The notes beneath the pieces are model-generated. The model saw only the letters and a program-made list of their open reading frames with translations. It was not told the DNA's origin and did not search any database. From a virus: a DNA stretch of 64,000 bases. The position numbers and the translations under genes were made by a program. The stretch is from the IMG/VR virus record IMGVR_UViG_3300031788_000007, positions 1 through 64,000 of that record. One strand, 5' to 3'. Every line of letters begins with the position of its first letter. Position 1 is the first letter of the stretch. Of the stretch, positions 627 to 63,874 are shown one piece after another.

Positions 627-643
627 AGTCCAAATTTTGGAGT
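627..643. repeat. 17-bp palindrome, copy 1 (AGTCCAAATTTTGGAGT)
   Basis: Intergenic, 8 nt after the stop of the small zinc-ribbon gene. The core TCCAAATTTTGGA is intact; the outer positions are AGT on the left and AGT on the right. Confidence 0.9.
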
Positions 644-1002
644 AAAAACCGTGGTGTTCCGCGGGAAAGGAGGGCAGCCCTATGCGACGAACCGACCTGC
701 AAGACAATCAGAAGAGCAATTCGATGCGGTAGACGGGCGCCGGCCACGCCGGAGTTCAGTTGGAAGTAGCGCGGGCCTGGGGCAACCTGGGCTCGCGGTG
801 TTTTGGTCGTGAGATCTGGCCGTGGGGTTCGGGACTTCCTCAAAACCCACCTACGGCCGCAGCAGGATTGGCTGAGACGAGCCGGCGGCTGTCGGGTGGC
901 GTCGTAGCACGGCGGAATCGTCTACGGGGCGACAGCGGCCAGGAAACGGGGGCCTTGCGGGAGGGCTTGGAGCGGGGCAAGATGATTCAGGAGGAAGAAG
1001 CC
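644..1002. other. 360-bp stretch without a convincing gene
   Basis: No long coding frame with an SD is seen. A 16-codon ORF at 682-732 has a good SD (AAAGGAGG) and could be a leader peptide or chance. An imperfect hairpin pairs 818-823 (GGCCGT) with 853-858 (ACGGCC), so part of the stretch may be structured RNA. No promoter or terminator can be called with confidence. Confidence 0.4.
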
Positions 1003-1185
1003 ATGCCTGAGCAGTTTTGGCACGTTTACAACTACTTGGCCCGTCAGTGGTACGAGACGGAATACGGGAAGGTTCCGTATGGGGATCGTTACTATGGGGT
1101 GGCGATGGATTATCTGTCTATGAGGGCAGCAACGGAGATGACTAGAATGGTCTGGGGTGAAAGCGATCAATCAACAGCGGCTTAG
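1003..1185 (+). CDS. Hypothetical small protein
   Basis: A 60-aa protein starting MPEQFWHVYNYL, rich in Tyr and Trp. The ATG at 1003 is chosen because AGGAGGAAGAAG lies just upstream; a longer frame exists upstream but looks non-coding. No recognised domain. An alternative ATG at 982 is possible. Confidence 0.6.
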   Translation: MPEQFWHVYNYLARQWYETEYGKVPYGDRYYGVAMDYLSMRAATEMTRMVWGESDQSTAA

Positions 1186-1207
1186 GCCGGGAGTAGGGGA
1201 GGAAACG

Positions 1208-3916: not shown

Positions 3917-4330
3917 ATGGAGACATGCCCACAATGTGAAGGAACGCCGGACCTGTGCAACGGCTATTGTGAAGGAACCGGCAAAGTGACGACCAGCCAT
4001 GCGGCAGAGTGGCATCGGCAGAATGATGAACCGAAGGCAGGGAAGACACTGGCCGACTTCGCCCACAGCGGGAAGCTCTTCAAGCGCCCGATGCACGCCA
4101 ACCCGCACGGATTTACGGCAGGCAGTGACAGCCTGAAAGAGATCCGCACATCGACATGGGGCGACCAGATCAACATTTGCTCAGACTTCCCACGGCTGAC
4201 CCGCGAAGACCTCACGGCGACCGACTGGGAAGAAGTAACACTCCCTAAAGAAGTCGAGGAGTACAGGAATTTCGGCGCGAACAACACCACGAACACCGGA
4301 GCCGACGGCCTGTTACCGGCGCTCAGTTAG
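3917..4330 (+). CDS. Zinc-knuckle protein with Tad2-like (DUF2829) C-terminus
   Basis: A 137-aa protein from ATG 3917 after GGAGGAGGGAAGA; upstream in-frame codons lack an SD. The N-terminus (CPQC ... C ... C, residues 4-18) could bind zinc. The region from ADFAHSGKLFKRP to LTREDLTATDWEEV follows the DUF2829 pattern (gain of a GK..+R motif, then xEDLxAxDW), the family containing Thoeris anti-defence protein Tad2, which binds the signalling nucleotide. The usual Trp after the basic pair is absent. The assignment is by remembered motif. Its TAG stop overlaps palindrome copy 2. Confidence 0.5.
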   Translation: METCPQCEGTPDLCNGYCEGTGKVTTSHAAEWHRQNDEPKAGKTLADFAHSGKLFKRPMHANPHGFTAGSDSLKEIRTSTWGDQINICSDFPRLTREDLTATDWEEVTLPKEVEEYRNFGANNTTNTGADGLLPALS

Positions 4331-4345
4331 TCCAAAATTTGGACT
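4329..4345. repeat. 17-bp palindrome, copy 2 (AGTCCAAAATTTGGACT)
   Basis: Perfect dyad over 17 bp. The TAG stop of the preceding gene (4328-4330) supplies the first two bases. Confidence 0.9.
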
Positions 4346-7904: not shown

Positions 7905-8429
7905 ATGGAAGCAGCGGAGAGAATAGGGAAACTGGTAGCGGCTCGATGCTTCAAAGAGCGCGGCAACCATTCACAGGCCCACTTGCTACAGGTAGAACTG
8001 GCGGGCTGGTGTCAGGTAGCGGCAGAGCTAGCCTTGAGAGTGGCAGACAACGCGCACACGGCGGCCCTGATGGAACCCAGCGACCGGCAGGACTGCGAGA
8101 CCTCAGAAGTGACGGAAGAGGCGAAAGCAGCTAACCGGGCGATGATAGCGGAGATGGAGCAGGACGGCGGCAGGACGCGGATCGGCAACACTCCAAGTTG
8201 TGATCTATGCGGAGAGCAGCACAGCGAGGAGCGGTCATGCGAGGAGCGTACAGCGATCGTCAACACGCCACGGTTTAAGGCAACCCATCGCGGTCAGGTT
8301 ATAGGTTGGTACGACACAGCCGCAGAGGCGGAGGCGGCAATAGACGCCGAAGCGGCAGGCTGCGACGAGTGCGGAGAGATCGACGGCCACGGCCCGGCCT
8401 GCTCCCTCAATCACGCCAACTTCGTCTAG
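7905..8429 (+). CDS. Hypothetical protein with Cys-rich C-terminus
   Basis: A 174-aa protein from ATG 7905 after GGAGGAGATGAGGAGAC. The N-terminal half is helical (EAAERIGKL ... ADNAHTAALM) and resembles a small-molecule or protein-binding helical bundle. The C-terminal half has CDLCGEQH and CDECGEIDGHGPAC, likely zinc knuckles. Last gene of the left arm: palindrome copy 3 and a strong terminator follow. Confidence 0.6.
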   Translation: MEAAERIGKLVAARCFKERGNHSQAHLLQVELAGWCQVAAELALRVADNAHTAALMEPSDRQDCETSEVTEEAKAANRAMIAEMEQDGGRTRIGNTPSCDLCGEQHSEERSCEERTAIVNTPRFKATHRGQVIGWYDTAAEAEAAIDAEAAGCDECGEIDGHGPACSLNHANFV

Positions 8430-8430
8430 C

Positions 8431-8447
8431 ACTCCAGAATTTGGACT
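8431..8447. repeat. 17-bp palindrome, copy 3 (one core mismatch)
   Basis: ACTCCAGAATTTGGACT starts 1 nt after the stop codon TAG; one core A is replaced by G. It directly precedes a rho-independent terminator. Confidence 0.8.
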
Positions 8448-11194: not shown

Positions 11195-11322
11195 AAGCCC
11201 ACCTTGGAAATTTATGGCGTGAGAGGGCAGACGAAATACTCTGTCTCGGGAAGTACCGTCGATCCCTGATGGCGTTGAAAGTTACGCTATGGGAACTTCA
11301 AAGCCTGTTCGTGGAGAGGTAG
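11191..11322 (+). CDS. Small hypothetical protein, 43 aa
   Basis: From ATG 11191 in an ATGA overlap, MKAHLGNLWRERADEILCL..., ending at TAG 11320-11322. Amphipathic and basic. The stop-start coupling on its left and the SD it carries for the following TTG start (GGAGAGG) support it as a real gene. Function unknown. Confidence 0.5.
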   Translation: MKAHLGNLWRERADEILCLGKYRRSLMALKVTLWELQSLFVER

Positions 11323-11324
11323 CC

Positions 11325-11939
11325 TTGAAACTCTATTTCTTCGGGTCAGAGATGGTTTCGCAATCGGCGTATCTTGAGATCGAAATTCTCTACCCGCAAG
11401 AGTTAGAATACCTTCGGAACATTGAAGCGCACATGCTTGCGGTCATCAACGAGTTTGGGATACCGGGGTTGGCCGCTCCACAGATCGGGTTTCCGATTCA
11501 GATGGTAGTGGTGAGGTTATCGGGAGGGAAGCGGTTGACGCTTTTGAATCCTCATATCGAGAGGATGTACGGAGCGGAGACAGAATATCCCGAAGGCTGC
11601 ATAAGTTGCCCTCCAGGCGGAAACCGATGCCCTACGGCGAGGATGCAATTCATCAACGTAATAGGGAGTTCGATCGAAGAGCCGGCAGTTGTGAAAGACT
11701 GGCATTTCTCCAGCAGGGATGCGAGGGTGGTGCAGCATGAAGTAGATCACTTGGCGGGGACATTCTTTGTAGACAGAGCGAGTGTGGTGGAGAAGTCGAA
11801 GGTGTTGGATCAGTTCCACCAGTGGAAGCACACATTCAAACAGAATGGGAGTCCAAATTTTGGACTCACACGAGGAGGACACAATGGCAGAGCAACCACC
11901 AGTACCCAGGCGCAGCATTCCCGAACAGTCACCGCTTGA
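11325..11939 (+). CDS. def: Peptide deformylase, phage copy 1
   Basis: Removes the formyl group from new N-terminal Met. All three family motifs are present: GLAAPQIG (motif 1), EGCIS (motif 2, metal Cys) and QHEVDHLAG (motif 3, HExxH). TTG 11325 is preferred because GGAGAGG is 6-7 nt upstream; an ATG at 11289 is in frame but lacks an SD. The protein (about 204 aa) is longer than usual: its last about 30 residues come from palindrome copy 4 (read S-P-N-F-G-L) and overlap the next gene. The tail has no PDF similarity, so the original stop seems to have been lost. Confidence 0.85.
   Translation: MKLYFFGSEMVSQSAYLEIEILYPQELEYLRNIEAHMLAVINEFGIPGLAAPQIGFPIQMVVVRLSGGKRLTLLNPHIERMYGAETEYPEGCISCPPGGNRCPTARMQFINVIGSSIEEPAVVKDWHFSSRDARVVQHEVDHLAGTFFVDRASVVEKSKVLDQFHQWKHTFKQNGSPNFGLTRGGHNGRATTSTQAQHSRTVTA
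11850..11866. repeat. 17-bp palindrome, copy 4 (AGTCCAAATTTTGGACT)
   Basis: Perfect 17-bp dyad lying inside the extended 3' end of the deformylase frame and 17 bp before the next start codon. Confidence 0.9.
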
Positions 11940-13889: not shown

Positions 13890-16052
13890 ATGGGAATCCG
13901 TCGCGCAAATCCTCACTTAGAAGAAATTATTGAGGTGTTGGACCTCCATCTCCAAAAGTACAGTGGCGATCAAGCGAAGGCCCGCGAGTATCTTTCTAAA
14001 GATGACAATGCTTGGATAGATGCAGAGATACTCCACTGCATGACTGAGCGACGTTACTTCCTATCCAACTACTATGCCATCAAAACTGAGGACCGCGGCT
14101 TCACCGGGTTGTACCCGTTTTGGGATTCGCAGGAGATTCTGCATGACGAATTCCGCCGGCTGGAGAAGCAGTTTGGACGCGTAAAAGCAATCGTCAACAA
14201 GGCTCGACAGATGGGGGGCAGCACGTATGTCTCAGGGGAAGTCTTCGCGGCAACAATCTTCAGTGAGCATGTAAACTCCATCGTCGTAGCTCAGGACGCC
14301 GATGTGACCCGGTACATCCTCGATATGTACGCAGCGGCTCTTGACTTTTTACCGTGGTGGATGCGTCCCCGAATTCGCTATCAAGAGGCCGGAAAATTCA
14401 TCGACTTTGATGAGAAAGACGAAACCCTGCGAATCACTCGCCCAGGACTGAAGACGCGCATCTACGGAGACAACGGGAACAAGCCGACCGGAGTGGGGAG
14501 GTCTAAAACTTTCGCAAGAGCCCACCTCGACGAGTTGCCGTTCTGGACCGATCCAAGCCAACTTACTAAAGCACTATTCCCAACCTTCAACTCCCCCGAC
14601 GGCTTCTATGTAATGATTTCAACCCCTAAGGGGCGTAATAATCCTTGGCACAATATGTGGCGTAAAGCGGAAGCTGGAGACATTGACTGGAACCCGGTCT
14701 ATATTCCGTTTTACAGGCGCGAAAAGACGTACTCTCTGCCGATTCCCAAAGGCGAAGTCTTTACGTTGACGAAGGACGAGGAAGAGATAAAATACCTCGT
14801 TCTCAAAAAAGACGGCTTCGCGATGAAGAACGAAGTCTTCAACTGGCGCCGGAAGAGGATTCAGGAATTCATCGCTAACGATGGCGACGACAAAATGTTC
14901 AATCAGGAATACAGCCTTACCGCAGAGGAGTCTTTCCAGACCTCCGCAGTCACCGCATATCCGTTGGGCATCATCAACAAGCTGATGAAACGAGTGCTGA
15001 ACCCGAAGTGGATTGGGGAGATCAGTTACGACTTCGACGCTGGCCGGCCGAAGGTGATGGTCCGCGAAGTGGAGCCGACTGCCGACTTGGAGTATCCAAA
15101 GCACCACAACCGCTTCAGTGTATGGAAGCGTGAGCGGCCAGGCGCGGTCTATGTCGTAGGGGTGGACGTGAGCCTTGGAAACGACGGCGGCGACTTCTCA
15201 TCAGTCACGGTAATCGACATATCTCTAGACCTGCCGAAGGATGAAGTGGTGGCAGTGTGGCACGGCTATATTGATCCCGAGTCGCTGGCTGATGTAACTC
15301 TAGCAATTTGCTGGATGTACAACGAGGCTCTGGCGGCCGTGGAAGTAAATTCGATGGGCATGGTGACGAACAACAAGTTGGTCCGCCAGTACGAGTACGA
15401 GAACATCTATCGGTACAAGCACCTCGACAAACTGACTCATTGGATGACCGACATTATCGGCTTTTGGACGAATGACAAGACCAAGCGGGCCTTGATGTCG
15501 AAGATGTCGAAGACGCTGATTGATGACTTGCTCAACATTCCAGACAAATTCACCGTCGACGAGTTTTATGATTTCACTGAAGATGGAGCCGAGGGAGACG
15601 GGGCTAGGGACGACCTTATGATGAGTCTTCACATCGCTCTTTACTGCGGCCACGAGGCTGAGTACCGCGAGATGCGGGAGGGGACCAGCAAGCAGGAATC
15701 GACAAAGCAGCAGAATGAATTCAAAATCCTCGACCGATTCGGTACAATCATTCAGACGACGAACTCGCAGCATGAAGCGGAGCGAGTGTCGAAGAAGAAC
15801 ATCGGAAGCAGTATCGTGAGGACGGCGGGGGCGACCGCTACAGTCAACCTGAAGGGATTGGGGGAAAGGAAAGTACCTAGCGATTTTCAGAATAGCGAGT
15901 ACAGCCCTGTGTTTGACGGCAATGGGACGGCTTCGCGCATGTACGAGGACGGGATCGATCCGGAGCTGATAACTCCAGAGGCGATAGCCCAGTACGAGGC
16001 GGATCAGGCGGAACTGGACTCGGATGACGAGAATTCATGGCTTTATCAGTGA
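13890..16052 (+). CDS. terL: Terminase large subunit (TerL), full length
   Basis: A 720-aa packaging motor: ATPase plus headful/cos nuclease. The Walker A-type motif is KARQMGGST (104-112); Walker B region HLDELPFW near 211; coupling motif ISTPKGRNN near 245. The RNase H-like nuclease begins VVGVDVSLG near 423 with catalytic Asp, then EVNSMG near 485 and GARDDLMMS near 571. Length is at the long end for TerL. It directly follows TerS. A second, split TerL lies at 46562 and 49010 and shares the blocks AVEVNS-G--TNN-L-RQYE. Confidence 0.9.
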   Translation: MGIRRANPHLEEIIEVLDLHLQKYSGDQAKAREYLSKDDNAWIDAEILHCMTERRYFLSNYYAIKTEDRGFTGLYPFWDSQEILHDEFRRLEKQFGRVKAIVNKARQMGGSTYVSGEVFAATIFSEHVNSIVVAQDADVTRYILDMYAAALDFLPWWMRPRIRYQEAGKFIDFDEKDETLRITRPGLKTRIYGDNGNKPTGVGRSKTFARAHLDELPFWTDPSQLTKALFPTFNSPDGFYVMISTPKGRNNPWHNMWRKAEAGDIDWNPVYIPFYRREKTYSLPIPKGEVFTLTKDEEEIKYLVLKKDGFAMKNEVFNWRRKRIQEFIANDGDDKMFNQEYSLTAEESFQTSAVTAYPLGIINKLMKRVLNPKWIGEISYDFDAGRPKVMVREVEPTADLEYPKHHNRFSVWKRERPGAVYVVGVDVSLGNDGGDFSSVTVIDISLDLPKDEVVAVWHGYIDPESLADVTLAICWMYNEALAAVEVNSMGMVTNNKLVRQYEYENIYRYKHLDKLTHWMTDIIGFWTNDKTKRALMSKMSKTLIDDLLNIPDKFTVDEFYDFTEDGAEGDGARDDLMMSLHIALYCGHEAEYREMREGTSKQESTKQQNEFKILDRFGTIIQTTNSQHEAERVSKKNIGSSIVRTAGATATVNLKGLGERKVPSDFQNSEYSPVFDGNGTASRMYEDGIDPELITPEAIAQYEADQAELDSDDENSWLYQ

Positions 16053-16066
16053 AAAAGGAGGAAACA

Positions 16067-16273
16067 ATGGAAAATCAAATGAAGGTCTGTTTTATCACGC
16101 TGGATCAGTACAACAGGATTTGGGCGAAGTTACAGCCACAGGAGAGGTTCGTTGTGGAGATGCCAACACTGGGCCTGATGCACAGAAAGGCAAACGCGCT
16201 TCTCATTGTCGGGAAGCAGGAAGATTTCATTGCAGACGTGAAGACGGTCATTCGACCAGATTGGTTGGCGTAA
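16067..16273 (+). CDS. Hypothetical small protein
   Basis: A 68-aa protein from ATG 16067 after AAAAAGGAGGAAACA; an upstream in-frame ATG at 16037 has no SD. MENQMKVCFITLDQYNRIW..., beta/alpha mixture. Unknown; follows TerL by 14 nt. Confidence 0.6.
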   Translation: MENQMKVCFITLDQYNRIWAKLQPQERFVVEMPTLGLMHRKANALLIVGKQEDFIADVKTVIRPDWLA

Positions 16274-16275
16274 AC

Positions 16276-16596: not shown

Positions 16597-16611
16597 TCCA
16601 AATTTTGGAGC
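16595..16611. repeat. 17-bp palindrome, copy 5 (AGTCCAAATTTTGGAGC)
   Basis: Starts inside the stop codon TAG. The last base differs from consensus. Together with copy 6 it brackets a single gene. Confidence 0.9.
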
Positions 16612-16623
16612 CGAGGAGGGGTT

Positions 16624-16929: not shown

Positions 16930-16944
16930 TCCAAATTTTGGAGT
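16928..16944. repeat. 17-bp palindrome, copy 6 (AGTCCAAATTTTGGAGT)
   Basis: Starts in the TAG stop (16927-16929) and is followed 7 bp later by the SD of the next gene. Confidence 0.9.
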
Positions 16945-16959
16945 AAGGGGAGGAGAAAG

Positions 16960-17589: not shown

Positions 17590-17600
17590 TAGGAACTCCA

Positions 17601-49765: not shown

Positions 49766-49780
49766 TCCAAATTTTGGACC
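49764..49780. repeat. 17-bp palindrome, copy 12 (AGTCCAAATTTTGGACC)
   Basis: Starts in the TAG stop of the terminase nuclease gene; the last base is non-consensus. Right boundary of the split-terminase block opened by copy 11. Confidence 0.9.
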
Positions 49781-51516: not shown

Positions 51517-54500
51517 GTGGCAGTTCTCGACCAGACCGAGGCTCAAATTCCTGTCGGGTTGACCCCAATCCCACTCGGGCAAGCGCCATCTAGTGAGGCA
51601 AAAATCCCTGCCGGGCTTACTCCTATCCCACTCGGTAGTCAGCAATCGAGTCCAAATTTTGGAGTGAAGTCGCAGACTCAGGCGACTCACGCCGTTACCC
51701 CTCCAGTAGATGTAAAGAGTTCTATCCCTGCCGGATTGACGCCCATTCCTAAGGAAGATTCTCACGTTGACGCTTTCATGGCGGGAATCAGGAAGCCAGC
51801 GGCTCTCCGTCAGCAGGTCTACGACTACACAGTGGGGTCTGGTTATAACGCAGACCAAGGACGCCAGCGCCAGAATGAGTACGACTACGCCATCAAGAAC
51901 GGGATGAACCCACAGCGAGCGCAGGAGTTCGCCCTGGGGATGCAGTTCGAGGGCGGGACACCGAAGTACAATCTCACAGACCAAGAGAAGTCCGATCTCT
52001 ACGGGAAGGCGAAACAGGCCGCAGAGGGATTTAAGAGCGGCCAGCAGAAAACGATTGAAAGTCATTTCCTTGGAGAATCATTATTGCCGGGGGATGACGA
52101 AACATATCGTCAAAACATCGACCCCGACGAATACGCAAGAAACTATGTCAAGGGGTATACCTACGCTCGGTCTCAGGGATGGGATGAAGGGAAGGCGCAA
52201 GAGTACGCCACGTCTGATGCCGCATCGCAGTGGATGACTCGGGCTGGAGAGTGGATTGATCCGAAGTGGCACTCCGTCAAAAGCGCGATTCTCAACGTCA
52301 TTCCCGGCATCTCGAAGCCGGAGGAGAGAGCGGAGAACCCGTTCTTTGCGACGAATCAGGGGTATCGAGAGAATCAGTTCCACGTCTACCATGAGGCTGC
52401 TTGGCTGGATGAGCACGTAGGCAAGGTAGCTGGCAGCGTAGACGCTGGGCTCGGAAACGTGGTCAACGGCTTTTCTACTCCCGGCATGGCAGCATTGATG
52501 GTTGCCAGCGAAGGGCAGGGACTTCTTGCCCGTGGCGGTATAGGGGCGGCCGAAGAAGTCGAGACTGCGAATCTGGCTACACGTGCACTTGGAAGGGTGG
52601 CGCGGGCCGGGGGAAGACAACTTGGCCGGTCGGCAGCGGCAAGCGAGGAGATTGATTCAGCGCAGGCTCTCAGGGCGGCAGAGAACGCAGAAAAGGCCAT
52701 CCGAGCAATTCGTGACGCGAGACTTCCTGTGTCGGCACAGAAGGTGGCGAGAACGTTCAATAAACTCGTCACGGTAGGCTTTACGGCTCAGATGGCGCAA
52801 GGTTCCGCTGAACAACTGGAGCAGGCCGCTAAAACCGCGTTCCCCGGAGAAGGGAAGGACGGCGACAGTGCGCTGGCTGTCGAGTATGCGGTTGAGGGTC
52901 TTGTCAGCGGGTTGATGGCCGTGCAGGGTGGAAACCATCTTCGGCATGAGCATCTTCTCACGTCCGATCTCAACTCAAAGACCGCCGAGATGTACGGGCC
53001 GCAAAAGCTCTCGGATGTTGGCGGCTTACATGAGGGTCCGAGACAGAACGCCGCGACCAAATTTGGCGACCTCGACCCGTATCGACAGGCCGCAGTCATT
53101 CAGCGGTTGATTGAAGATGATCCGAAGTATAAAGCCGCAGAGGATGCAAGCGAGAAGGAGCAAAAGCGGCTTGCGAAGAAGATAGCCTACCGCTACAACA
53201 CAGCATTGCAGCAGGCGTGGAATCCCAACGCGGTAGATCGCATGGTGCGGGTGATTGACAACCATCGCGCAGCGAACGAATGGTACGGCGCAAGACAGAA
53301 GGCGGAGGATGAGGCTCGGAAGCACTACCTCGACCAGATCACGAAGCTCATTGACCTCCACAAGCAAGACAAAGCCGACGAAGAGGAACTTGTTAAGGCT
53401 GAGGCAGAGCGCCGGGCCGCGGCAAGGGAAGGCCGTCCGGTACGGAAGACTGTAGACGCGCAGAAGAGGGAAGAGAGTCGCAAGGTAACTCTGACGAACG
53501 CGGCGCAGATTGCCGAGCATCGGCAGGGGGTAGTAGATGCCCGCGATGTAGCGGATAAGGAAACGGCCGAGCAGGAGAGATCGGAGGCTCAGGACTCCAC
53601 CACGAACTCTCAAAAAGAATGGGACGATCGGTATGCTCGCGTCTACGGTATGCACGCCAGGAATAACCCTGATTGGTCTATGCCTCGTCTCCACGGTGAG
53701 ACGCTAGATATTGTCGGAGAAAGGCCCAAGGAGGATAAACAGGGAGAGTTACGCCACCCGGACGAGGTGACCGACGACCAAGGGTATGTGTCGTACCGTA
53801 GTCAGGTGTTTGGAGGGGAAGAGCACCACTTCGGCGTAGCTCAGACTCCAGACGGGAAGTGGGGAGTCTATCGGAAGACGCCGGATGGGATTGAATACCT
53901 GGGAGCCGGGGGAATCTTTGACGGCCAGCCGCAAGAAAGCTACCTTGCGCCCAATGAAGAGACGGCCAAGGCTCTCGCTCAGATCACTTCCCTTCGGGTC
54001 AATGCCGATTACGCTCTTGAGGAGCATGGAACCACGCCGGAGCGGGAAGCGGAACGGAAGCAACTCCGCGACTTAGAGCACAGTCTGGTAGATGGCACGA
54101 TCACGGGAGAGCAAGCACGCAAAGCCGCCGGACTGCCGGAGGAAGCGCAAGAAGCGCAGGCCAAGGAAAAGGCTAATCACGAGATCGAAGCCGCCAGAGC
54201 AGGAGCATTGAACGGTCCCCTTCACGGCAGAACGAAAGCTCAATACGAAGACGAGTTCCTTGCTGGGCTGGAAGAGGCGGGATGGGAGCCGGAGACGATC
54301 GAAGCGATGATCGACACCCTCCCTCTTCAACTTCGGATGGAGGCTGAGAACAATCTCCACTACGTCGGCCGTTCGGGAGACTGGATTGCCTCGAAGAAGG
54401 GTGTGACCTGGGTTCTCGACTCGAAGGGCATGTTGCAGCCGGACGATGGGATGAGTGCGCCGATCCCACTGATGAAGAATGGCCGCTACTCGACGCAGGC

Positions 54501-57500
54501 AATCGATCTGTCAATGTCGGGAAGGGTTGGATTCGGGCAGCGCAGTTGGGAAGACGCCAAAGTTGAAGAAGCGAAGGAGCGCGAAGCCAATCAGCAGTTG
54601 GAGAATCTTGTCGGAAACGTAGCCGATGAACTCCAGAGAGCCATTGAACTCTCGAAGCAGAACGCTGGCTTACAGATGGAAGCCGGGGAACTCCCTCTTG
54701 AGCGGCCGGCGCCGAAGCCGAGAAGCAGGTTCGCACCTCCAGTCGAAGGCCAAATGGCGGAATCTCCCGAGCGGGAGACTGACCGGGCCGTACAGGAAGG
54801 TCACGAGGCCATCCAAGCCGAGCAGAGGGCATTCGATGAAGCGTGGATTACCTTCATGGCCGAGGATCTGGCTGCGAACCATGAGACTCCGTGGCAGTTG
54901 ATTGAGAGGGTAGCCAAGAACAGCGGCATGACCCCGCAGGAAGTCTTGGCTCTCCAACTTGAGCGGTTGGCTCCTACAGACACCGTAGACGGCAGGATTC
55001 AACGGTTGAAGGCCGGGGACACCATCACCGACAAGATGGGCTTGCCGTGGGTGGTGAGGGCCGACAGGAACGGAACTCTGTATCTCCGTAAGGGGCAGGG
55101 AGCCAGAATCCACGTCAACAAGTTCAAGCCGTCAGACGACGTGCGGAGGATTGTTGGAACGGGAGAAGTTCAGCCGGCGCCAGGGCCGCGGTGGACTCCC
55201 GAAGACGTGCGGAAGGCCGCTTATGAACCTGCCTACATATCCCGCCGCAATGAAGTCATTGAAGAGGTGAAGCAAAGAGAGACGGGAGAGATTAAGGAGC
55301 ATCCACCGGCCACGCCAGAGGTTGCGGAGCGGCAAGCGGTGGCGGCAGAAGACCGTGAAACTCAGGTGAACGATGCGGCAGTAGCGGCAACCGCTGCGGC
55401 TGTTGATCCTCCACCAAAGGCGACCGACAAAGAGATCGACGAAGCCATTTCTAAGGCCGAGGAATTGCGGAAGGTTACCGAGGCCGCAGCGAGACAGGCG
55501 GCAGCCGCCAGAGGGCGCACAGCCGGGCCGGGAGAGTACCCACAGAAGGCGCCCATCACATCGAAGAGGGTTCCAGGGAGAGCATGGGCCGTAGGGCATG
55601 ACGGCTATATCCAGACGATCGCCAGCAAGATTCCCATGCACCGCGAACTCGTTAAATTGAATCAACTCACTCCATCCTTCAGATGGAACGGAAATATGCT
55701 AGAGAGGGTTACTGAGTATCCAGAGCAGATGCAGGATGTCCCCCCCGACGAAGCGACACGTTCACAACTTCTAGCAGATGCCCAGCCGGTCAGGTATGAC
55801 GTTGACCAATTTCTCGACCCAGGTTACGGCCCCGAGCGGGGACCGTCCATTGTGGACATTGGCGGCGATGTAGTTGGAGGGAACCGCCGCTTGCTCAGGA
55901 TGCTGAAGTACCTTGAGTTGATCCATGGAGACAAGGAAGCTCTTGCCGCGTTTCGAGCCAAGATGGCCGAATACGCCGGGAAGAACGGGATGGTGTACCC
56001 AGAGGGAGATGAAATCTACATCCCAGTTCGGATGCTTGACGAGCCGATAGGGACGATAGCCAAAGCGACTGAGTTAGGGCACTTATTCAACAAGAAGGCA
56101 TCTCATGGAATCGACGAAAACGCGAAGTCGATCACCTATGGACGGATGCTTTACGAAGCCCAGAGGACGGAAGAGGCACTAGGACGCAATGGAGTTCTGG
56201 ACCGTATAGCCGATGAGTTCAATAGAGCCGAGACGCCGCGAGATGCAATGGCTAACAAACCTGGATTCTTCGCCAATATAGTGCGAAATGAACTCGGGAT
56301 AGGCGGTGAAGATCAATCAGATTGGTTTAACAAAAACCCGAAGGGAGAATATGAGTTTCTGAGTACGAATGGTAAAGAGAAGCTAGAGAAAGCCCTGCTT
56401 GCCACCGTATTGAAGAATCCGTCTACGATCGACGCATTGGGAAGCTCGACGGCCTACGATTCGTTGCTGAAGTCGATTGGCCCTCTCACGCGCTTACGTG
56501 CCGTTCCAGACAAGGACATCATCAGTGTCATCGAAGAGGCAATTTCAGCCACGGCCACGACCGAGCGGAAAAGGGTTGATGGAGACTCCCCGAGGGTACG
56601 GTGGAATAAGACATTTGGAGAGCGAGAGTTTTTCTCGGACGAGAAGCCCCTCGATGAGCCGGGCCGGATGGTGGAAGCGATTTGGAGGGCATTGCATGAC
56701 CGGAAGACCACACGGTTCAAGAACGCTCTCAATGATTATTTGGTAGGCGAGGGAACCCAGCGTGGATTCTTTGACCCGGCAGAGCATGGATTGAAGACTC
56801 CCGCCGACCTTTTCAATGCGGCCTTCGAGGATGAACTGAAGGACGTGCGCGACTCTCGTGGACTGCAATTGGATGAGGCGAAGAGCGGGAAGTTCAAGGG
56901 CGATAACGCAAGTGGGATGAGAACATTCCTCGACACGCTTTCTTGGGAACTTACTCAGGATCAATTCGACGCTGCTCTTGAAAACCGCGACAATTACGGT
57001 GACGAATCGGTTGAGGATGCGAAGCGGTCAGAGGAAGGGAAGCCGCCACAGGAAGCGCCGAAGCCTGAAGGCGTGTCGAAGAAAATGTTCATCACGAAAC
57101 AAGATGAACGTGACCTGAAAGGACTCGGTTGGAAGCAAGAGCAGATCAATGCGATGAAGCCCGAAGAGGCGCAGGAGATTCTGTCTCTCGGGAAGCAAGC
57201 GCCGAAAGGGTTCAAGCCCCCAGAGCCCCCAGCGCCGAAGCCAGAAGCCGACCTCTCAGCGGCCAAAGCCGAGAAAGGCTACGTCACCCCCGACGAACTG
57301 GAGAAGTTCATCTCTGACCATCCGGCCACCGCAGATCATGCTCCTGAGATCATGCGTACCGCAAGGATGATGGCAGAGTATGTCTTCGATTCAGACCCAC
57401 CGGAGGGAGTGGAGAAGAAAGACGCTCTCGCCTGGGTGTTGGAGCAGCGCGTAGCAAAGTTGGCCTATGAGGAAAAGGGGAAGGGGAGAGGCTCCTACTC

Positions 57501-60500
57501 TGACCCCGAGATCGAGAAGGGCATTGGCACCCGCATTTTGAAGTTGACGAAGGCTTCAGATGAGACGACCTTCATCCATGAGTTCGCGCACGTCATCTTC
57601 CCGATGCTCTCTCAAGAGGACATGCGGGCCATCGACACGATCACCGGAGAGAAGGGTGAGCACTGGAAGCATGGCGACCCGCTCCGCGGCGAAGCCTACA
57701 AAACTGTCAGCGAGAAGTTTGCGCACGGGCTTGAGAAGTTCCTGCGGGACGAGAACCCGACCGGCTTTAGTGCTGAGGTGAAGAAGGTACTCGCCAAGGT
57801 CAAGGAGATGTTCCAAGCGGCCTATCTTCGGTTCCGTAGCGACCCGCTCTCGACGTTCAATCTGAGTGAGGACGCGAAGGAAGTCTTTGCGAATATGTTC
57901 CACATCGAAGACCTCGACCCCGCAGACGACTTCAGAAAGCAGCGAGAGGAAGCTCGCAAAGCAGACGCCAAGCAGAAGAAGGGCATGGTGAAGCCGGAAG
58001 CGGCTTTGCACCCAATTCAGCAGTTGGCGAAAGACCTGGGGCCGAAGCCAGTCCAAATTTTGGAGTCGATTGACGGATCGGTTGAGGATTCTTCAGGGGA
58101 GCGCGTGGACCCGTCGAAGCCGATGGCTGCATTCGTTTACGACGATGAAGAACATGCAGCGCAAGCCTATCTAAAAGCCGCAGAGGAAGGCTCTGGCGTG
58201 GCCGGCGTGGAGTTCGTGCAGACGAAGGACGGAAAGTACGCTGTCCGGTTCAACGTCAAGGCCAAGGTGCCAAAAGACATTCTCTATCAGGACGCGCAAG
58301 AGAAGCACCCCGGCCTGAGACTTGAGGACATGGAAGCGAAGTTGAAGACGACAACCTCGCCGATCCTGAAGAAGTTCCTTGAGACTCAGATTGGCAGGTT
58401 GAAAGCGGAGATCCGTAACGAGCCAAGGCCGCAGGTAGAACCCGGTTTGGCGAAGCAGGCAATCGCGGAGGTGAAACGTGGCACAGAAGGGCGAAAGACA
58501 GACACGGGACGAGCGGGGGTATCCGACTTACGAGGAGTACCTGATGGAAATCCTGGGGATGCAAAGCAAGCAGGAGTTGGACGACTTTCTCGGCCGCCCA
58601 TCATGGGGATGCCTGGACATGCAAGTGCCGGAGGTGCCGCCGATCGAAATAGACCCGGAGGAGGAAGTTCTCAGCCAGTTAACCTCGCAAACGTAACGCC
58701 GGTCAGACTCCAGCCGTTCGAGAGGGGGCGCGGAACACCAGTTGGCATCCTCGCCGGAGAGAAGTTTGACGAGAAGGTGTGGAGAGATGGCCTAAAGAGG
58801 GCTGGCCTTCCAGAGAACATGCCAGCGCCGACAGTGACGCTCTCCCCCGAGGTTGCTCGGACATTGAAGTATGCAGGACAGAAGCAGATCGTTCAGACCG
58901 TCCTATCAGCACTGGAGCAAGGAGACGGGGCTGTGATTGCATCTGTGGCGGGTTCCGGCAAGACATGGACGGAGATGGGTGTGGTTAAGGAAACGATCCT
59001 TCGGAACCCCGACGCCAAAGTTCTTGTCATCACCATGAATCGCGGATTGCTAGAAGAGGGCGACGATGCCGTTCGACAGGTAGCGAAGAACGGCTACGAT
59101 TTGAAGGTTGAAACCGACATCCTCGACAAACCTCCCGAGCCGGGTGTTTACGGGGCAACCTACCAGCGGTTGCTCAATAACTCCATCTACGCTCAAACGC
59201 AGTGGGACTTGGTGATCGCCGACGAGTCAGGAGCAGCGCGTAACTGGTACAGAGATGAAAACCAGCAGGGCAAACTCCTGAAGGCTGTGATGGACAACGC
59301 CAAGAAGGGTGTGTACGTCTCGGCGACTCCGTTCCATTCGCCTAACGAATACGGCTACGCCGAAAAGTTGAACTTGTGGCCGAAGGGAGGATTTGAAGAC
59401 TGGATCAAGAACAACTTTGCCCACGAGAAAATCGGCGACAAGGTGGTTGCGAAGCTCGACCCGGCAAAGCAGGCAAAACTACGTGAGCAGATGGTTGAGC
59501 GTGGGCAGTTCATCTCGCAGCAAATCTCCTACGATGGATTCTCTGTCCACTTCGGAGTGGTCCCTGTAACCGACGTGGTGGAACGGAAGCTAGACCGCAT
59601 CCATCAAGGAATTGCAGTTATGAAGAGGGAGTTGCTGAAGCAGGGCAAGAAGGGACTCTCTGAGCGGGTATCTGCTTTTGAGGCGACGTACACGAAAGCC
59701 TATCTTGAGCGGTCGAGACTGCCAGAGGCCATCGAAGTCGCAAAGAAAGCAAGAGCGCAGGGATGGCAGGTAGCCATATTCTCAGAAACCACATCTGAAG
59801 ACCTTTTCCGCCGGCCGGTTGGCCCGAAGGAGGAGCCGGGAACGTATCGTCTGTTAGACGAGGAAACCGGCGGCCAAATATCGCGCATCATGCCAGAGTT
59901 CCCGAACATTGCGGACGAACTCAAAGCCGAGTTTGGCGATGAGATGGGTGATTACAGCGGCGTTGGGAATACCGACGCGCAGCGCGAAGAGGCGAAGCAA
60001 GCCTTTTTGAAGGGGAAGAAGAAAGTTCTCTACACTTCATATGCCGCAGGAGGAATCGGCATCAACCTGCAAGACAAAGACGGAGATAAGCCAAGAATCT
60101 CCATCTTCCTTGGGCCGCCGTACTCTGGAATTCTACTCGAACAATCATTGGCGAGAACGTGGCGATTGGGAGTGAAGTCGAACGCGAGGGCGGTGTTCCT
60201 TGCGACAGACTCAGAGCCGGACATTCGTTTGATGGCTACAAAGATTGGGCCTCGCATGAGGGCGTTGAGCGCGGCGGTTCTAGGCGACCGTGATTCTTTG
60301 GCTTCGGTGATGACGAACTACACCGACGAAGAGAAGATGCGTGAACATCAGGACATGATGGCGTTCGACCAGGGCAACGAAGTGAAGGTTGACGCTCAGG
60401 GCTTCCAAGTGCGGAGCAAGCGGAAGGTCAATTTCGACAACTGGAGTTCGATCACCTTCCCGAACGCTGAAGAAGCCAAGAACAAAGGTATGCAGGTGGA

Positions 60501-63003
60501 GATGTCTGGAGGAGGCAAGGGGTCAGATTGGGCCACTCTCTATCAGGAGAAGCCGAGACGGTGGGAGCCACCTAACAGACCGTTGACCATCGAAGACCTC
60601 AAGATTCGCCGGGCGGTCAATGCGGCGGCCGACAAAGCAGCGGCGAACCCACAGATACCGCACGAAGAGGTCACCATGACGGCTGCGAGGGCCGAGGAGG
60701 TCGCCAAAGCCGCGCCAGAGGGAGTCGACAAAGAGGCGGCGGGTAGAGATGCCGTTGGCGGGCACCTGAAGGGCCTTGGCTACGTCCAAGACCCTCTCAC
60801 TGGCGAGTGGAAGACCCCAGAGAAGATTGAGCCGGCGCCGCCCAGCGGAGAGATCGAGGCTGCCAATCGCTCAGTCGCCAACCGACTTGTCGGATTCACG
60901 TTAAGCCAAGAGCAGAACATCCTCTCAGAAACAAGGCGCATGGGAGTGCCAGAACTCGGGCGGCAAATTGTCGGTATGGGGCGCTCATACTCCGGGCTTG
61001 TAAAAAATCATCTAGCGGACCTGCGCAATTCCCTATCTACAATCATGCGAAACAATGGTCTGAACCCGCACAATGAGAAGGTGATGCGTGACATCTTCGA
61101 CGTTGTGATGGGGAAGAGGGCCGTTGCCGATCCGCGAGTCAACAAGGGCGCAGAAGAAGTGCGTGTTTTGATGGGAGACATCCGCGAGAAGGGAGCCGCT
61201 GGCGGGTTGGCGGTGCGGACTCCAGATGGAAGAATAGTGCCGTGGGCGGATTTTCAGAACGATCCGAGCTACATGCCGCGGATAGCGGACTGGAACGCGA
61301 AGTTCACGGACGCGGAAGGCAAGACGTACACCCTGAAGGAGATCATGGGCGGAACCTTCGGTGAGATCAGGGCGAAGGAGTTACTGGCAAAGAAACTCAA
61401 AGAAGACGGCAATCCCATGTCTGCCGACAGAGCCTATCAACTCATCAAGCGTGAGCGGCTACAGGCACCCGTGCAGGGCAATATCCAGAGAACGAACGAG
61501 GTGAACTTCCCGTTTATCAGGAAGGACTATGGGGCGATCGACAACTACTTCAAGCAGTATTCACGGGCAATGGCGACCGAGAAAGTGTTTGGCTCGGACC
61601 TAAGAAAACTGCAAAAGGAGATTGGGAAGATCCCGAACAAGCAATTCAGGACAGATGTAGAGCAGATGTTCGGCTATATGTTCACGCCGCAAAACTGGGA
61701 TTCGGACCTGGGGGCGGTCTACAACGTCCTGTCCGCAGCGGAGACGGCCACAAAGATGTTCCCGTTCTCTGTAACAAAGGTGTTGTTCCATGCTGGGAAC
61801 GCGCCAATGATTATCGGCAAGACAGGCCACTACATGCCCGTCCTGAAGGCTGCATTCAAGGCGGCAACTGACCTCAAGGCCGTCAAAGAGAACGCCTATT
61901 TGGTTGGCACGATCGCGCATGGTGTCGATCCGGCAGTGATGTATATGCCGGATACGAAGACACAGCACGGCCTTTTCAAGTGGACTGGATTTGAGTACAT
62001 CTACAACGTGGCGCGAGCCATTGGCGGAGAGTCTGCGCGGGTCTACCTCGACCAGTACGCCGCGAACGACCTGAAGAAAGGCGGCAATACTGAGGTGCGG
62101 GCGCGAAGACTTCTGAAGAACTCGCTGCTCATTGGAGATCACGCCATTGACGAGTTCTTGAGAACAGGTAAGTGGGACCGCGATAGTTACAGGCTTGCTC
62201 AGGTTGCATTTGCCGACGAGTCACTATACTCGGAAAATCCAATGCAGATGCCGGAGTTTGCGCGTAGGAGAATCGCAGGAGAGGGATTAAGCTCCACGGA
62301 CAAGTATCTGAATATGGGCCTCCGGGCGTCCTATTCTCTCCAGTCGTTCACCGCCAAGACCTACTCAATGCTGAAAGAGCATCTCTACGATGAAGTGGTA
62401 CTCCACCATAATCTTCGTCCGCTCGCTTACGCGATGGTTGTGTCGCCGGTTATCGGGCAAATGCTGCAAGGAGTATCCTCGGCCGCAAAGGGCGGGGTAC
62501 ACCGTTTGGCGCAGTACGGCTTAGATAGGCCGCATACCGAGGATGCCTGGGATAAGTGGCTTTCGCAATTCTCTGGGATGAAGGACCATCCCGCTGCAAC
62601 CTTTCTGAAACTCTATGTCGACGGTCTTTGCGCACAGTGGGCTCTTGAGCGGACGAAGCGGCTGGCGGATGCGTTGTTTAACCTGTCTATAGATGACAAG
62701 CCTAGCCTAAAATCTGCAAAAGATACCGGGATGTATTTGTTGAACGATGAGGTTGAGCAGGATATAGGCCCCATCTGGACAGACACGGTAATGCGACCTT
62801 TTATTGACTTCCCAGCGGCCGAGATACAATCGGAAGCAGTAAGCGAGTCGCAGGAGCATCACGGCAAGCCAAGCAGTTTTTGGGATCGAACGGGGAAAAA
62901 CGTTGTGCGGGAATTGAGGGATACTGTGCCTGTACTCAGACAAGAGCCGGATGTGGAAGAATATCTCGCGCCGAAAAAGAGTGGAAAGTGGCAGGTTCCT
63001 TAG
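51517..63003 (+). CDS. Giant polyvalent protein: ParB-like, zincin and helicase domains
   Basis: A 3828-aa protein from GTG 51517 after GAGAGGGAGTCCA. Order: three IPxGLTPIP repeats (11-21, 30-40, 70-78); helical region; charged coiled coils (550-700); DdrB-like ParB domain with VDQFLDPGYGPERGP and IVDIGGDVVGGNRRLLR (about 1370-1640); zincin motif HEFAH (2021-2025); SF2 helicase with AGSGKTW (about 2478), DES (2569) and QSLARTWRLG (2876); long helical C-terminus. No methyltransferase motif seen. Large polyvalent proteins are typically ejected with phage DNA to blunt host defences. Confidence 0.75.
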   Translation: MAVLDQTEAQIPVGLTPIPLGQAPSSEAKIPAGLTPIPLGSQQSSPNFGVKSQTQATHAVTPPVDVKSSIPAGLTPIPKEDSHVDAFMAGIRKPAALRQQVYDYTVGSGYNADQGRQRQNEYDYAIKNGMNPQRAQEFALGMQFEGGTPKYNLTDQEKSDLYGKAKQAAEGFKSGQQKTIESHFLGESLLPGDDETYRQNIDPDEYARNYVKGYTYARSQGWDEGKAQEYATSDAASQWMTRAGEWIDPKWHSVKSAILNVIPGISKPEERAENPFFATNQGYRENQFHVYHEAAWLDEHVGKVAGSVDAGLGNVVNGFSTPGMAALMVASEGQGLLARGGIGAAEEVETANLATRALGRVARAGGRQLGRSAAASEEIDSAQALRAAENAEKAIRAIRDARLPVSAQKVARTFNKLVTVGFTAQMAQGSAEQLEQAAKTAFPGEGKDGDSALAVEYAVEGLVSGLMAVQGGNHLRHEHLLTSDLNSKTAEMYGPQKLSDVGGLHEGPRQNAATKFGDLDPYRQAAVIQRLIEDDPKYKAAEDASEKEQKRLAKKIAYRYNTALQQAWNPNAVDRMVRVIDNHRAANEWYGARQKAEDEARKHYLDQITKLIDLHKQDKADEEELVKAEAERRAAAREGRPVRKTVDAQKREESRKVTLTNAAQIAEHRQGVVDARDVADKETAEQERSEAQDSTTNSQKEWDDRYARVYGMHARNNPDWSMPRLHGETLDIVGERPKEDKQGELRHPDEVTDDQGYVSYRSQVFGGEEHHFGVAQTPDGKWGVYRKTPDGIEYLGAGGIFDGQPQESYLAPNEETAKALAQITSLRVNADYALEEHGTTPEREAERKQLRDLEHSLVDGTITGEQARKAAGLPEEAQEAQAKEKANHEIEAARAGALNGPLHGRTKAQYEDEFLAGLEEAGWEPETIEAMIDTLPLQLRMEAENNLHYVGRSGDWIASKKGVTWVLDSKGMLQPDDGMSAPIPLMKNGRYSTQAIDLSMSGRVGFGQRSWEDAKVEEAKEREANQQLENLVGNVADELQRAIELSKQNAGLQMEAGELPLERPAPKPRSRFAPPVEGQMAESPERETDRAVQEGHEAIQAEQRAFDEAWITFMAEDLAANHETPWQLIERVAKNSGMTPQEVLALQLERLAPTDTVDGRIQRLKAGDTITDKMGLPWVVRADRNGTLYLRKGQGARIHVNKFKPSDDVRRIVGTGEVQPAPGPRWTPEDVRKAAYEPAYISRRNEVIEEVKQRETGEIKEHPPATPEVAERQAVAAEDRETQVNDAAVAATAAAVDPPPKATDKEIDEAISKAEELRKVTEAAARQAAAARGRTAGPGEYPQKAPITSKRVPGRAWAVGHDGYIQTIASKIPMHRELVKLNQLTPSFRWNGNMLERVTEYPEQMQDVPPDEATRSQLLADAQPVRYDVDQFLDPGYGPERGPSIVDIGGDVVGGNRRLLRMLKYLELIHGDKEALAAFRAKMAEYAGKNGMVYPEGDEIYIPVRMLDEPIGTIAKATELGHLFNKKASHGIDENAKSITYGRMLYEAQRTEEALGRNGVLDRIADEFNRAETPRDAMANKPGFFANIVRNELGIGGEDQSDWFNKNPKGEYEFLSTNGKEKLEKALLATVLKNPSTIDALGSSTAYDSLLKSIGPLTRLRAVPDKDIISVIEEAISATATTERKRVDGDSPRVRWNKTFGEREFFSDEKPLDEPGRMVEAIWRALHDRKTTRFKNALNDYLVGEGTQRGFFDPAEHGLKTPADLFNAAFEDELKDVRDSRGLQLDEAKSGKFKGDNASGMRTFLDTLSWELTQDQFDAALENRDNYGDESVEDAKRSEEGKPPQEAPKPEGVSKKMFITKQDERDLKGLGWKQEQINAMKPEEAQEILSLGKQAPKGFKPPEPPAPKPEADLSAAKAEKGYVTPDELEKFISDHPATADHAPEIMRTARMMAEYVFDSDPPEGVEKKDALAWVLEQRVAKLAYEEKGKGRGSYSDPEIEKGIGTRILKLTKASDETTFIHEFAHVIFPMLSQEDMRAIDTITGEKGEHWKHGDPLRGEAYKTVSEKFAHGLEKFLRDENPTGFSAEVKKVLAKVKEMFQAAYLRFRSDPLSTFNLSEDAKEVFANMFHIEDLDPADDFRKQREEARKADAKQKKGMVKPEAALHPIQQLAKDLGPKPVQILESIDGSVEDSSGERVDPSKPMAAFVYDDEEHAAQAYLKAAEEGSGVAGVEFVQTKDGKYAVRFNVKAKVPKDILYQDAQEKHPGLRLEDMEAKLKTTTSPILKKFLETQIGRLKAEIRNEPRPQVEPGLAKQAIAEVKRGTEGRKTDTGRAGVSDLRGVPDGNPGDAKQAGVGRLSRPPIMGMPGHASAGGAADRNRPGGGSSQPVNLANVTPVRLQPFERGRGTPVGILAGEKFDEKVWRDGLKRAGLPENMPAPTVTLSPEVARTLKYAGQKQIVQTVLSALEQGDGAVIASVAGSGKTWTEMGVVKETILRNPDAKVLVITMNRGLLEEGDDAVRQVAKNGYDLKVETDILDKPPEPGVYGATYQRLLNNSIYAQTQWDLVIADESGAARNWYRDENQQGKLLKAVMDNAKKGVYVSATPFHSPNEYGYAEKLNLWPKGGFEDWIKNNFAHEKIGDKVVAKLDPAKQAKLREQMVERGQFISQQISYDGFSVHFGVVPVTDVVERKLDRIHQGIAVMKRELLKQGKKGLSERVSAFEATYTKAYLERSRLPEAIEVAKKARAQGWQVAIFSETTSEDLFRRPVGPKEEPGTYRLLDEETGGQISRIMPEFPNIADELKAEFGDEMGDYSGVGNTDAQREEAKQAFLKGKKKVLYTSYAAGGIGINLQDKDGDKPRISIFLGPPYSGILLEQSLARTWRLGVKSNARAVFLATDSEPDIRLMATKIGPRMRALSAAVLGDRDSLASVMTNYTDEEKMREHQDMMAFDQGNEVKVDAQGFQVRSKRKVNFDNWSSITFPNAEEAKNKGMQVEMSGGGKGSDWATLYQEKPRRWEPPNRPLTIEDLKIRRAVNAAADKAAANPQIPHEEVTMTAARAEEVAKAAPEGVDKEAAGRDAVGGHLKGLGYVQDPLTGEWKTPEKIEPAPPSGEIEAANRSVANRLVGFTLSQEQNILSETRRMGVPELGRQIVGMGRSYSGLVKNHLADLRNSLSTIMRNNGLNPHNEKVMRDIFDVVMGKRAVADPRVNKGAEEVRVLMGDIREKGAAGGLAVRTPDGRIVPWADFQNDPSYMPRIADWNAKFTDAEGKTYTLKEIMGGTFGEIRAKELLAKKLKEDGNPMSADRAYQLIKRERLQAPVQGNIQRTNEVNFPFIRKDYGAIDNYFKQYSRAMATEKVFGSDLRKLQKEIGKIPNKQFRTDVEQMFGYMFTPQNWDSDLGAVYNVLSAAETATKMFPFSVTKVLFHAGNAPMIIGKTGHYMPVLKAAFKAATDLKAVKENAYLVGTIAHGVDPAVMYMPDTKTQHGLFKWTGFEYIYNVARAIGGESARVYLDQYAANDLKKGGNTEVRARRLLKNSLLIGDHAIDEFLRTGKWDRDSYRLAQVAFADESLYSENPMQMPEFARRRIAGEGLSSTDKYLNMGLRASYSLQSFTAKTYSMLKEHLYDEVVLHHNLRPLAYAMVVSPVIGQMLQGVSSAAKGGVHRLAQYGLDRPHTEDAWDKWLSQFSGMKDHPAATFLKLYVDGLCAQWALERTKRLADALFNLSIDDKPSLKSAKDTGMYLLNDEVEQDIGPIWTDTVMRPFIDFPAAEIQSEAVSESQEHHGKPSSFWDRTGKNVVRELRDTVPVLRQEPDVEEYLAPKKSGKWQVP
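51649..51665. repeat. 17-bp palindrome, copy 13 (AGTCCAAATTTTGGAGT)
   Basis: Inside the giant gene, read in frame as S-P-N-F-G-V (residues 45-50), between the second and third IPxGLTPIP repeats. Confidence 0.9.
58050..58066. repeat. 17-bp palindrome, copy 14 (AGTCCAAATTTTGGAGT)
   Basis: Inside the giant gene, read in a different frame from copy 13, as V-Q-I-L-E-S, in a linker after the zincin domain. Confidence 0.9.
58478..58696 (+). CDS. Possible overprinted gene nested in the giant gene
   Basis: A 72-aa frame (+1 relative to the host gene) from GTG 58478, with GGAGGTGA 6 nt upstream, ending TAA 58694-58696. The product is acidic with a plausible fold (GYPTYEEYLMEILGMQSKQE; WGCLDMQVPEVPPIEI). 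Over the same bases the main frame encodes a Gly/Arg/Asp linker with unusual codons (CGA, AGA, GTA, TTA), suggesting the nested frame is the constrained one. Could be a spliced or frameshift remnant. Confidence 0.5.
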   Translation: MAQKGERQTRDERGYPTYEEYLMEILGMQSKQELDDFLGRPSWGCLDMQVPEVPPIEIDPEEEVLSQLTSQT

Positions 63004-63050
63004 TAGGAGTATGATTTTAATGTCTTCAGATTTGAAGACGAGGAGGACGT

Positions 63051-63224
63051 ATGGAGAAAGCGATAACTTTTGTGGAAGGAACGCAAACATGGATTGGCAA
63101 CCTTACAGAGAAGCGCGACAGGCTTCTTCGGGACGCCGAGCGTGTCAGCAAAGCAATCGCCTTTCTAGAGGCGCACCCGGAATTGGTAGAACTGTATACG
63201 GAGTATGTGGAAATAATGCCCTAA
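63051..63224 (+). CDS. 57-aa helical protein
   Basis: From ATG 63051 after CGAGGAGGACGT: MEKAITFVEGTQTWIGNL..., then a coiled-coil-like charged helix (LTEKRDRLLRDAERVSKAIAF broken by Leu). Ends at TAA 63222-63224, 4 nt overlapping the reverse-strand gene's end. Unknown function. Confidence 0.55.
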   Translation: MEKAITFVEGTQTWIGNLTEKRDRLLRDAERVSKAIAFLEAHPELVELYTEYVEIMP

Positions 63225-63874
63225 GTAGAAGACTGGGAAGTGGGCCGTTCCTTAACCGACTCCAAAATTTGGAGTACCTGTTGCGCCAACTTGACCTTTT
63301 GAGCGAAGTCGGCTTTCTGTGATTCAGTGACGATCATTGAAAGCCGCTGCTGGAGGGCTTCATCGGCGCGGAACTCTTTATCGGTAGGGATGAGTGAGAC
63401 TTCAGCCGACAGGCGGGAGCGGAAGAGTTCAATCATCTCGGAGAGCAAGAATGGCGCGAGTTGTTTATGGAGAGTCTTTTTAGACCTTTTGAGCATCGTT
63501 TCTCGCACAAACAACGGAGAGTAGAGAAAGTGTTTTTTATCAACCCGCACAGAAGGAATAGCGTGTCTCAGTACGTATCGTCCCATCATTATCTGGCTCA
63601 TGCCGAGGAGTTCGGCACACTCGCCCTGAGTGAGTAATGCTTTTTCAGTGAGGCCGGCGGGAACGGGGAAGTGGCGCCTGTGGATGATGGCGCCCAGGCG
63701 AAGCTGCTCTGCGTACTCGGGGGTGGGGTCGAGGTAACGCTTATCGGGGTTCTTCCCAATGACAGCCAAGCAGCCCTTCCGTTCGAGGGTACGGACCTGT
63801 CTAGGGGACAGCCGTAGGCGGTCACAGATGCCGGAGAGGGAGAGCCATGTCTGTTCAGAGGATGGGTTGTGCAT
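63221..63874 (-). CDS. DNA-binding protein with two helix-turn-helix motifs
   Basis: A 217-aa reverse-strand protein. Residues 10-50 (WLSLSGICDRLRLSPRQVRTLERKG) look like a MerR/excisionase-type HTH and residues 80-115 (TQGECAELLGMSQIMMGRYV) like a second HTH; the C-terminal half is helical and may dimerise. A regulator role is likely. Its coding sequence holds palindrome copy 15 near the 3' end (read L-Q-I-L-E-S-V), making it a candidate binder of the repeat. Overlaps the upstream partial gene by 20 nt. Confidence 0.65.
   Translation of the reverse strand: MHNPSSEQTWLSLSGICDRLRLSPRQVRTLERKGCLAVIGKNPDKRYLDPTPEYAEQLRLGAIIHRRHFPVPAGLTEKALLTQGECAELLGMSQIMMGRYVLRHAIPSVRVDKKHFLYSPLFVRETMLKRSKKTLHKQLAPFLLSEMIELFRSRLSAEVSLIPTDKEFRADEALQQRLSMIVTESQKADFAQKVKLAQQVLQILESVKERPTSQSST
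63259..63275. repeat. 17-bp palindrome, copy 15 (ACTCCAAAATTTGGAGT)
   Basis: Perfect 17-bp dyad inside the 3' part of the reverse-strand HTH gene, about 36 nt before its stop. Confidence 0.9.

Follow-up and report, generated by a model that had tools for sequence, protein, structure and literature searches.

The stretch of phage DNA analysed here raises the question of why one short palindrome recurs at fifteen dispersed places and which protein might read it. The window, i.e. the whole stretch of 64,000 nt, represents bases 1-64000 of a contig of 78,982 bp (G000). All 15 palindromes sit at the first bases given in the original prediction, the core TCCAAAWTTTGGA is intact in 14 of them, and the copy at 8431 deviates by one mismatch (TCCAGAATTTGGA). 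The 17-mer consensus derived at that stage holds for most copies but not for those at 16595 and 49764, which end in C and thereby miss the last base. As held in the original prediction, the number far exceeds chance: a search allowing ≤2 mismatches to TCCAAAWTTTGGA yields exactly 15 matches in the window, whereas 100 dinucleotide shuffles gave 1.27 on average and never more than 5. Four more sites, at 65822, 69709 (one mismatch), 72408 and 78169, are present in the last 15 kb of the contig, which contains 19 sites in total (17 perfect cores and two with one mismatch) at a mean spacing of 4.3 kb.

Almost all genes of this phage are found on the plus strand. They include those for a T4-like large terminase (13890-16052), the portal (17586-19436), the major capsid protein (ca. 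21767-22735), which was assigned from conservation and position only and served as a marker, and an internal-virion-like protein (41541-44888), followed by a giant plus-strand ORF of 3828 residues (51517-63003; 11.5 kb). The helicase domains of the latter are located in its third quarter, its first 2000 residues contain no recognised domain, and it aligns between clades in parts only. Beyond the window, the contig encodes a RecT-like annealing protein, exonucleases, a DnaB-like helicase and a Holliday junction resolvase. The closest terminase among deposited phages is ca. 27% identical, and judged by such comparisons the family appears to be essentially undescribed in the deposited-phage collection searched. 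As side observations, two separate peptide deformylase genes (11289-11939, plus strand; 29205-29750, minus strand) are both kept in relatives, and an acyl carrier protein gene is present at 68845-69138 of the contig.

Most sites are placed in the gaps between the stop codon of one gene and the start codon of the next. The first (627-643; AGTCCAAATTTTGGAGT) is intergenic and precedes a ribosome-binding site and ATG by ca. 40 nt. In many cases a TAG stop codon takes its final AG from the palindrome. An example is the second site (4329-4345; AGTCCAAAATTTGGACT), whose AG completes the stop codon of the upstream ORF ending at 4330. The same overlap is found at 16595-16611 (ORF ending at 16596), at 16928-16944 (ORF ending at 16929), at 24782-24798, at 40469-40485 (ORF ending at 40470, next gene from 40501) and at 49764-49780 (ORF ending at 49765, next gene from 49790). 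The site at 16928 lies 5' of the pre-portal gene starting at 16960, the ortholog of which is also preceded by a site in other clades (e.g. G011 and G013). That at 24782 ends 5 nt ahead of the ATG at 24804 with its GGAG in the Shine-Dalgarno position and is kept ahead of the ortholog in G002, G006 and G012. The mismatched third site (8431-8447) begins 2 nt past the stop of ORF 7905-8429 and immediately 5' of a terminator-like GC-rich hairpin with a T-run; across the relatives described below, a strict terminator was found ≤60 nt from only 2 of 151 sites. The fourth (11850-11866) is positioned in the 3' part of the deformylase-like ORF 11289-11939, 17 nt 5' of the ribosome-binding site and ATG of the next ORF, and is kept in the related contig L015. 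Two further sites precede an ATG by 4 nt (32016-32032) or separate an ORF ending at 46515 from one starting at 46562 (46534-46550). Others deviate from this pattern. The site at 28975-28991 lies between convergent ORFs (plus strand ending at 28973, minus strand ending at 28990), where no promoter is to be expected, and others reside inside genes, with two within the giant ORF (51649-51665, encoding SPNFG, and 58050-58066, encoding VQILE) and one within the 3' end of a minus-strand gene for a double-HTH protein (63259-63275), which aligns with sites in G012/G031 and G013.

With the terminase and capsid proteins as queries, ca. 50 related contigs were gathered, about 25 of which carry the site at densities of up to one per 3-4 kb. 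It occurs throughout the members whose terminases are 45-78% identical, with 25 copies in 97 kb of G036, 22 in 89 kb of G035, 21 in 56 kb of G013 and 9 in 104 kb of G011. In accordance with the expectation of the original prediction, both the sequence and many positions are kept. The site nevertheless has clade-specific forms (ASTCCAAAWTTTGGAST, AGTCCAAAWTTTGGACT and ATTCCAAAWTTTGGAAT), as its outer bases are S (C or G) in the clade of the window, G/C in palindromic arrangement in that of G011, G007 and G010, and mostly T/A in that of G013, G035 and G036. The distant relative G037, with a capsid protein of 59% identity, contains a different dispersed palindrome (gTCCCAATTGGGAc; TCCCAATTGGGA in 20 copies at ≤1 mismatch over 102 kb), and the TCCAAAWTTTGGA site was not found there. 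Such clade-specific forms, together with the different palindrome of G037, are as expected of a co-evolving pair of protein and site.

The giant gene indicates how the sites arise. In each relative it keeps one to three of them at changing positions. One in-gene site of G011 is conserved at 13 of 13 bases in G013 and G036 despite a protein identity of ca. 40-46%, a similarity reached by 0.4% of the windows in this gene; other sites in the gene occupy positions private to one clade. The site at 58586 in G036 aligns codon by codon and without gaps with relatives that have no site, which implies that sites are gained by base substitution; the site at 58050 of the window likewise aligns ungapped to G012, which has none there. 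Different positions in the giant gene have converged on similar peptides such as VQILE and LQILE. Two observations on sequence exchange and occurrence elsewhere are added here. Relative to the 99% identical G005, the gene content changes abruptly at 4325, 16053-16959 and 32018 of the window, and in this one contig pair homology resumes at palindromes at 4325 (second site) and 32018 (ninth site), so that shared sites may serve as recombination points. Moreover, the contig G016 (L133), whose proteins are nearly devoid of similarity to the phage family of the window, carries six TCCAAANTTTGGA sites (≤1 mismatch) clustered within 6 kb (ca. 46.8-52.6 kb), often flanked by TTTTGTCC and GGACTGTTTT; these may form an operator cluster of their own that arose in a similar way.

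The alignment of 151 non-redundant sites (out of 184) also defines what kind of element the palindrome is. Information is limited to the 17 bp, and the flanking bases are not conserved. The two arms vary independently, complementary outer pairs being no more frequent than independence predicts. Given independent arms, no conservation outside the palindrome and in-gene gain by substitution, the palindrome is, as far as its sequence pattern tells, recognised as DNA by a symmetric protein that is probably a dimer, and is not an RNA hairpin, a promoter or a mobile element. A tiny mobile palindrome spreading by insertion, as considered in the original prediction, is hardly credible and was discarded: the copies are many and homology blocks resume at two of them in the near-identical pair, but their flanks share nothing, no longer repeat unit as in REP-like elements surrounds them, and inserting 17 bp would disrupt the reading frame, whereas the in-gene site stands in an ungapped codon alignment with site-less relatives.

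An action at the RNA level, by an mRNA hairpin that hides a GGAG ribosome-binding site or is processed, is highly improbable. The TCC/GGA arms are able to pair and the GGAG of the site can act as Shine-Dalgarno sequence at some genes. However, the outer pairs do not covary, G-G is the commonest outer combination in the clade of the window with C-C also common, and compensated double changes amount to one, equal to the reversed-sequence control; the absence of covariation led us to reject the hairpin. Very unlikely is also the view that the sites are promoters or activator sites for the downstream gene, used by a phage RNA polymerase or an activator. It is favoured by a ribosome-binding site and start codon ≤55 nt downstream of 66% of the non-redundant sites (11% in the reverse direction), an association weaker than at first sight given the forward rate of 30% at random positions. 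Against it, the site is symmetric and has none of the conserved bases, directional or at fixed spacing, that accompany directional phage-polymerase promoters, on which grounds a promoter was rejected, and sites occur between convergent genes, within genes and ahead of the terminator-like hairpin.

The relation of the sites to promoters was analysed in 15 contigs, which contain 33 strong sigma70-like promoters, or 28 once orthologous duplicates are removed; the sigma70-like consensus may not be that of the host. No site lies ≤60 bp to either side or ≤500 bp upstream of these 28 promoters. In contrast, 9 of the 28 have a site ≤500 bp downstream versus 3.1 expected (p=0.0014), in a test that is exploratory, as some of the data had already been inspected when its distance limits were set. 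Placement downstream of promoters thus appears to fit stoperators better than classical operators, and the convergent-junction and in-gene sites likewise do not fit operators sitting on promoters.

A binding protein provided by the host, whose sites the phage would exploit, is quite unlikely. The clade variants could follow different hosts. However, hardly any cellular genome carries the 17-mer (392 of the 394 sampled lack it), which agrees with the original prediction that it should not be equally frequent in host DNA. It is missing in 198 of 199 Acidobacteriota genomes and, within the phylum to which a Victivallis bin belongs, in 194 of 195, the lone positive in each set being the genome that seeded the search. 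Among the cellular matches listed in the collection scan, most genomes have just one copy, the exception being an unrelated repeat. This repeat of Lentisphaerota, agcctaaaggctgg-ACTCCAAAWTTTGGAGT-tcacactttagtgtg, is composed of three palindromes and was observed in L195, L204, L205, L253, L260 and others, with 22 copies in one Victivallis bin and 5 each in two other bins. The 22-copy bin was considered as a carrier of the site and rejected, since its copies belong to this longer repeat. The REP-like centre ACTCCAAAWTTTGGAGT resembles the phage site but is embedded in a three-hairpin unit absent from the phages, and the likeness is probably a coincidence.

If the protein is encoded by the phage, the best candidate is the double-HTH protein of 217 residues (63221-63874, minus strand), which contains two HTH_17/MerR-like domains and is transcribed opposite to nearly all other genes. 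In the collection scan its gene was found only in this phage clade, and it is present in every long contig with a TCCAAAWTTTGGA-type palindrome, always adjacent to the giant gene and in minus orientation; the earlier suspicion that it binds the sites is therefore reasonable. Conserved together with it is a small basic protein (63855-64000 and on to 64124 outside the window, minus strand), whose gene overlaps the start of the HTH gene. The predicted structure of the double-HTH protein is of low confidence (pLDDT 65, pTM 0.32) and in this model only the HTH domain matches known folds (MerR, BldC and RacA), so no function was deduced from it. G037 has a minus-strand gene with two HTH_17-like domains, which matches the double-HTH protein weakly (9.5 bits, E=0.21), and the neighbouring small gene shows no significant similarity; as the homology is not significant, the pairing of site and protein is presumptive. 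Alternative candidates are XRE-type HTH proteins encoded outside the window (64141-64341, 66884-67297 and 71334-71768 of the contig), which are also conserved and one family of which is encoded on the plus strand next to or near the double-HTH operon. Two other conserved HTH families thus compete with the 63221-63874 protein for the role of reader, making three in all. The divergent region between the two operons harbours a perfect site in G013 and a degenerate one in G036. At the N-terminus of the XRE-type protein of 66884-67297, part of the domain start is duplicated (FTVDGAKLTA repeated).

From the observed sites, their symmetry at the DNA level, conservation, drift, placement and spacing we infer a first scenario for their function. 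One sequence-specific, symmetric and probably homodimeric HTH protein would bind the palindromes; it would most likely be encoded by the phage, with the double HTH_17/MerR-like protein (63221-63874) as lead candidate. Sites at junctions, in genes away from junctions and downstream of promoters argue that the bound protein would most likely hinder transcription elongation genome-wide, as a roadblock or a silencer, similar to the dispersed repressor sites of phiC31 and L5. Our confidence in such a stoperator-like network is moderate. Among the readings of the original prediction, an operator or silencing network fits best, and a partition or condensation function persists, though no ParA-type gene was found.

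The latter function is part of the strongest alternative, which we consider less likely: a phage or host protein on evenly spread palindromes might condense, bridge, anchor or segregate the replicating genome and have no direct role in transcription. Tested against a uniform null, the spacing is more even than random in G000 (CV 0.48, p=0.0005), G036 (p=0.0014) and G038 (p=0.004), and the CV of G000 was reached in none of 20,000 draws of random gene junctions. Site density is alike in structural and replication regions, the 11-kb gene retains its one to three sites while their positions change, and the fold matches take in RacA and BldC besides MerR regulators. Against genome architecture, even spacing is not universal, as the same null revealed none in G035, G037 and G007, the bias towards positions downstream of promoters is not predicted, ParA was not found, and the fold matches concern a generic DNA-binding domain in a low-confidence model.

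Among known kinds of system, the networks of dispersed repressor sites in phiC31 and L5, with 18-30 sites per genome (PMC4557955), come nearest, although the present network belongs to neither. Analysed with the same code, the 41.5 kb of phiC31 yield 15 dispersed palindromes that have a core in common, 13 of them with CTACTCACGTGAGTAG. These conserved inverted repeats for the c repressor of the Streptomyces phage are likewise dispersed and mostly found just past stop codons. Their sequence is unrelated to the present 17-mer, no match to CTACTCACGTGAGTAG was obtained at ≤2 mismatches, and blastp detected no c repressor homolog among the contig ORFs. The stoperators of L5 and other cluster A phages, tens per genome, are mostly remote from promoters, block elongation and drift in motif with their repressor (PMC6550527). 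The present sites share the number and the motif drift between relatives, and appear to share the placement. L5 stoperators, however, are asymmetric, mostly in one orientation and bound by a monomer, whereas the present site is symmetric, and two of their forms gave no 13-mer match at 0-1 mismatch. In total, dispersion and junction placement are shared with the phiC31 and L5 networks; the site sequence, the stoperator asymmetry and a detectable repressor homolog are not. In SPbeta, the repeated element SPBRE is bound by the master repressor MrpR (PMC10516654), but it occupies promoter regions, and the fold of MrpR is that of a tyrosine recombinase, a domain not found in the present phages. The SAS/ESAS repeats of cluster K are short, near gene starts, common to subclusters and absent from host genomes (PMC3203893), features resembling those of the present sites; unlike the symmetric palindrome, SAS is asymmetric and presumed to function in translation, and a GGGATAGGAGCCC-like asymmetric 13-mer was not matched at 0-1 mismatch. 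ParABS partition employs a ParA-type ATPase, of which the present phages revealed none. What is new here is the site sequence; the proposed genome-wide switch looks like that of temperate phages of mycobacteria and Streptomyces.

The lifestyle differs from these precedents. Eight contigs, possibly incomplete, contain no match to tyrosine integrase, serine recombinase or ParA (PF00589, PF00239, PF13614), in contrast to the integrase-bearing phiC31, and a capsid profile retrieved no relative, i.e. no prophage, from ca. 85,000 cellular genomes. With neither maintenance genes nor a cellular relative detected, nothing so far points to lysogeny, the state served by the known dispersed-operator systems. 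Tentatively, a strictly lytic family might keep an even palindrome network, read by its own co-evolving protein, for genome organisation or transcription pacing rather than lysogeny. Genome-wide binding-site networks have so far been described in temperate phages, where they keep the prophage silent. The present one persists across a family whose structural genes are ca. 50-60% identical, with the site drifting by clade, and no genes for integration or ParA were detected alongside it. Should the roadblock reading be true, the network would be an unlinked origin of stoperator-like control, achieved with a symmetric site; if the palindromes instead serve genome architecture, the phage genome would carry a set of centromere-like or nucleoid-like sites.
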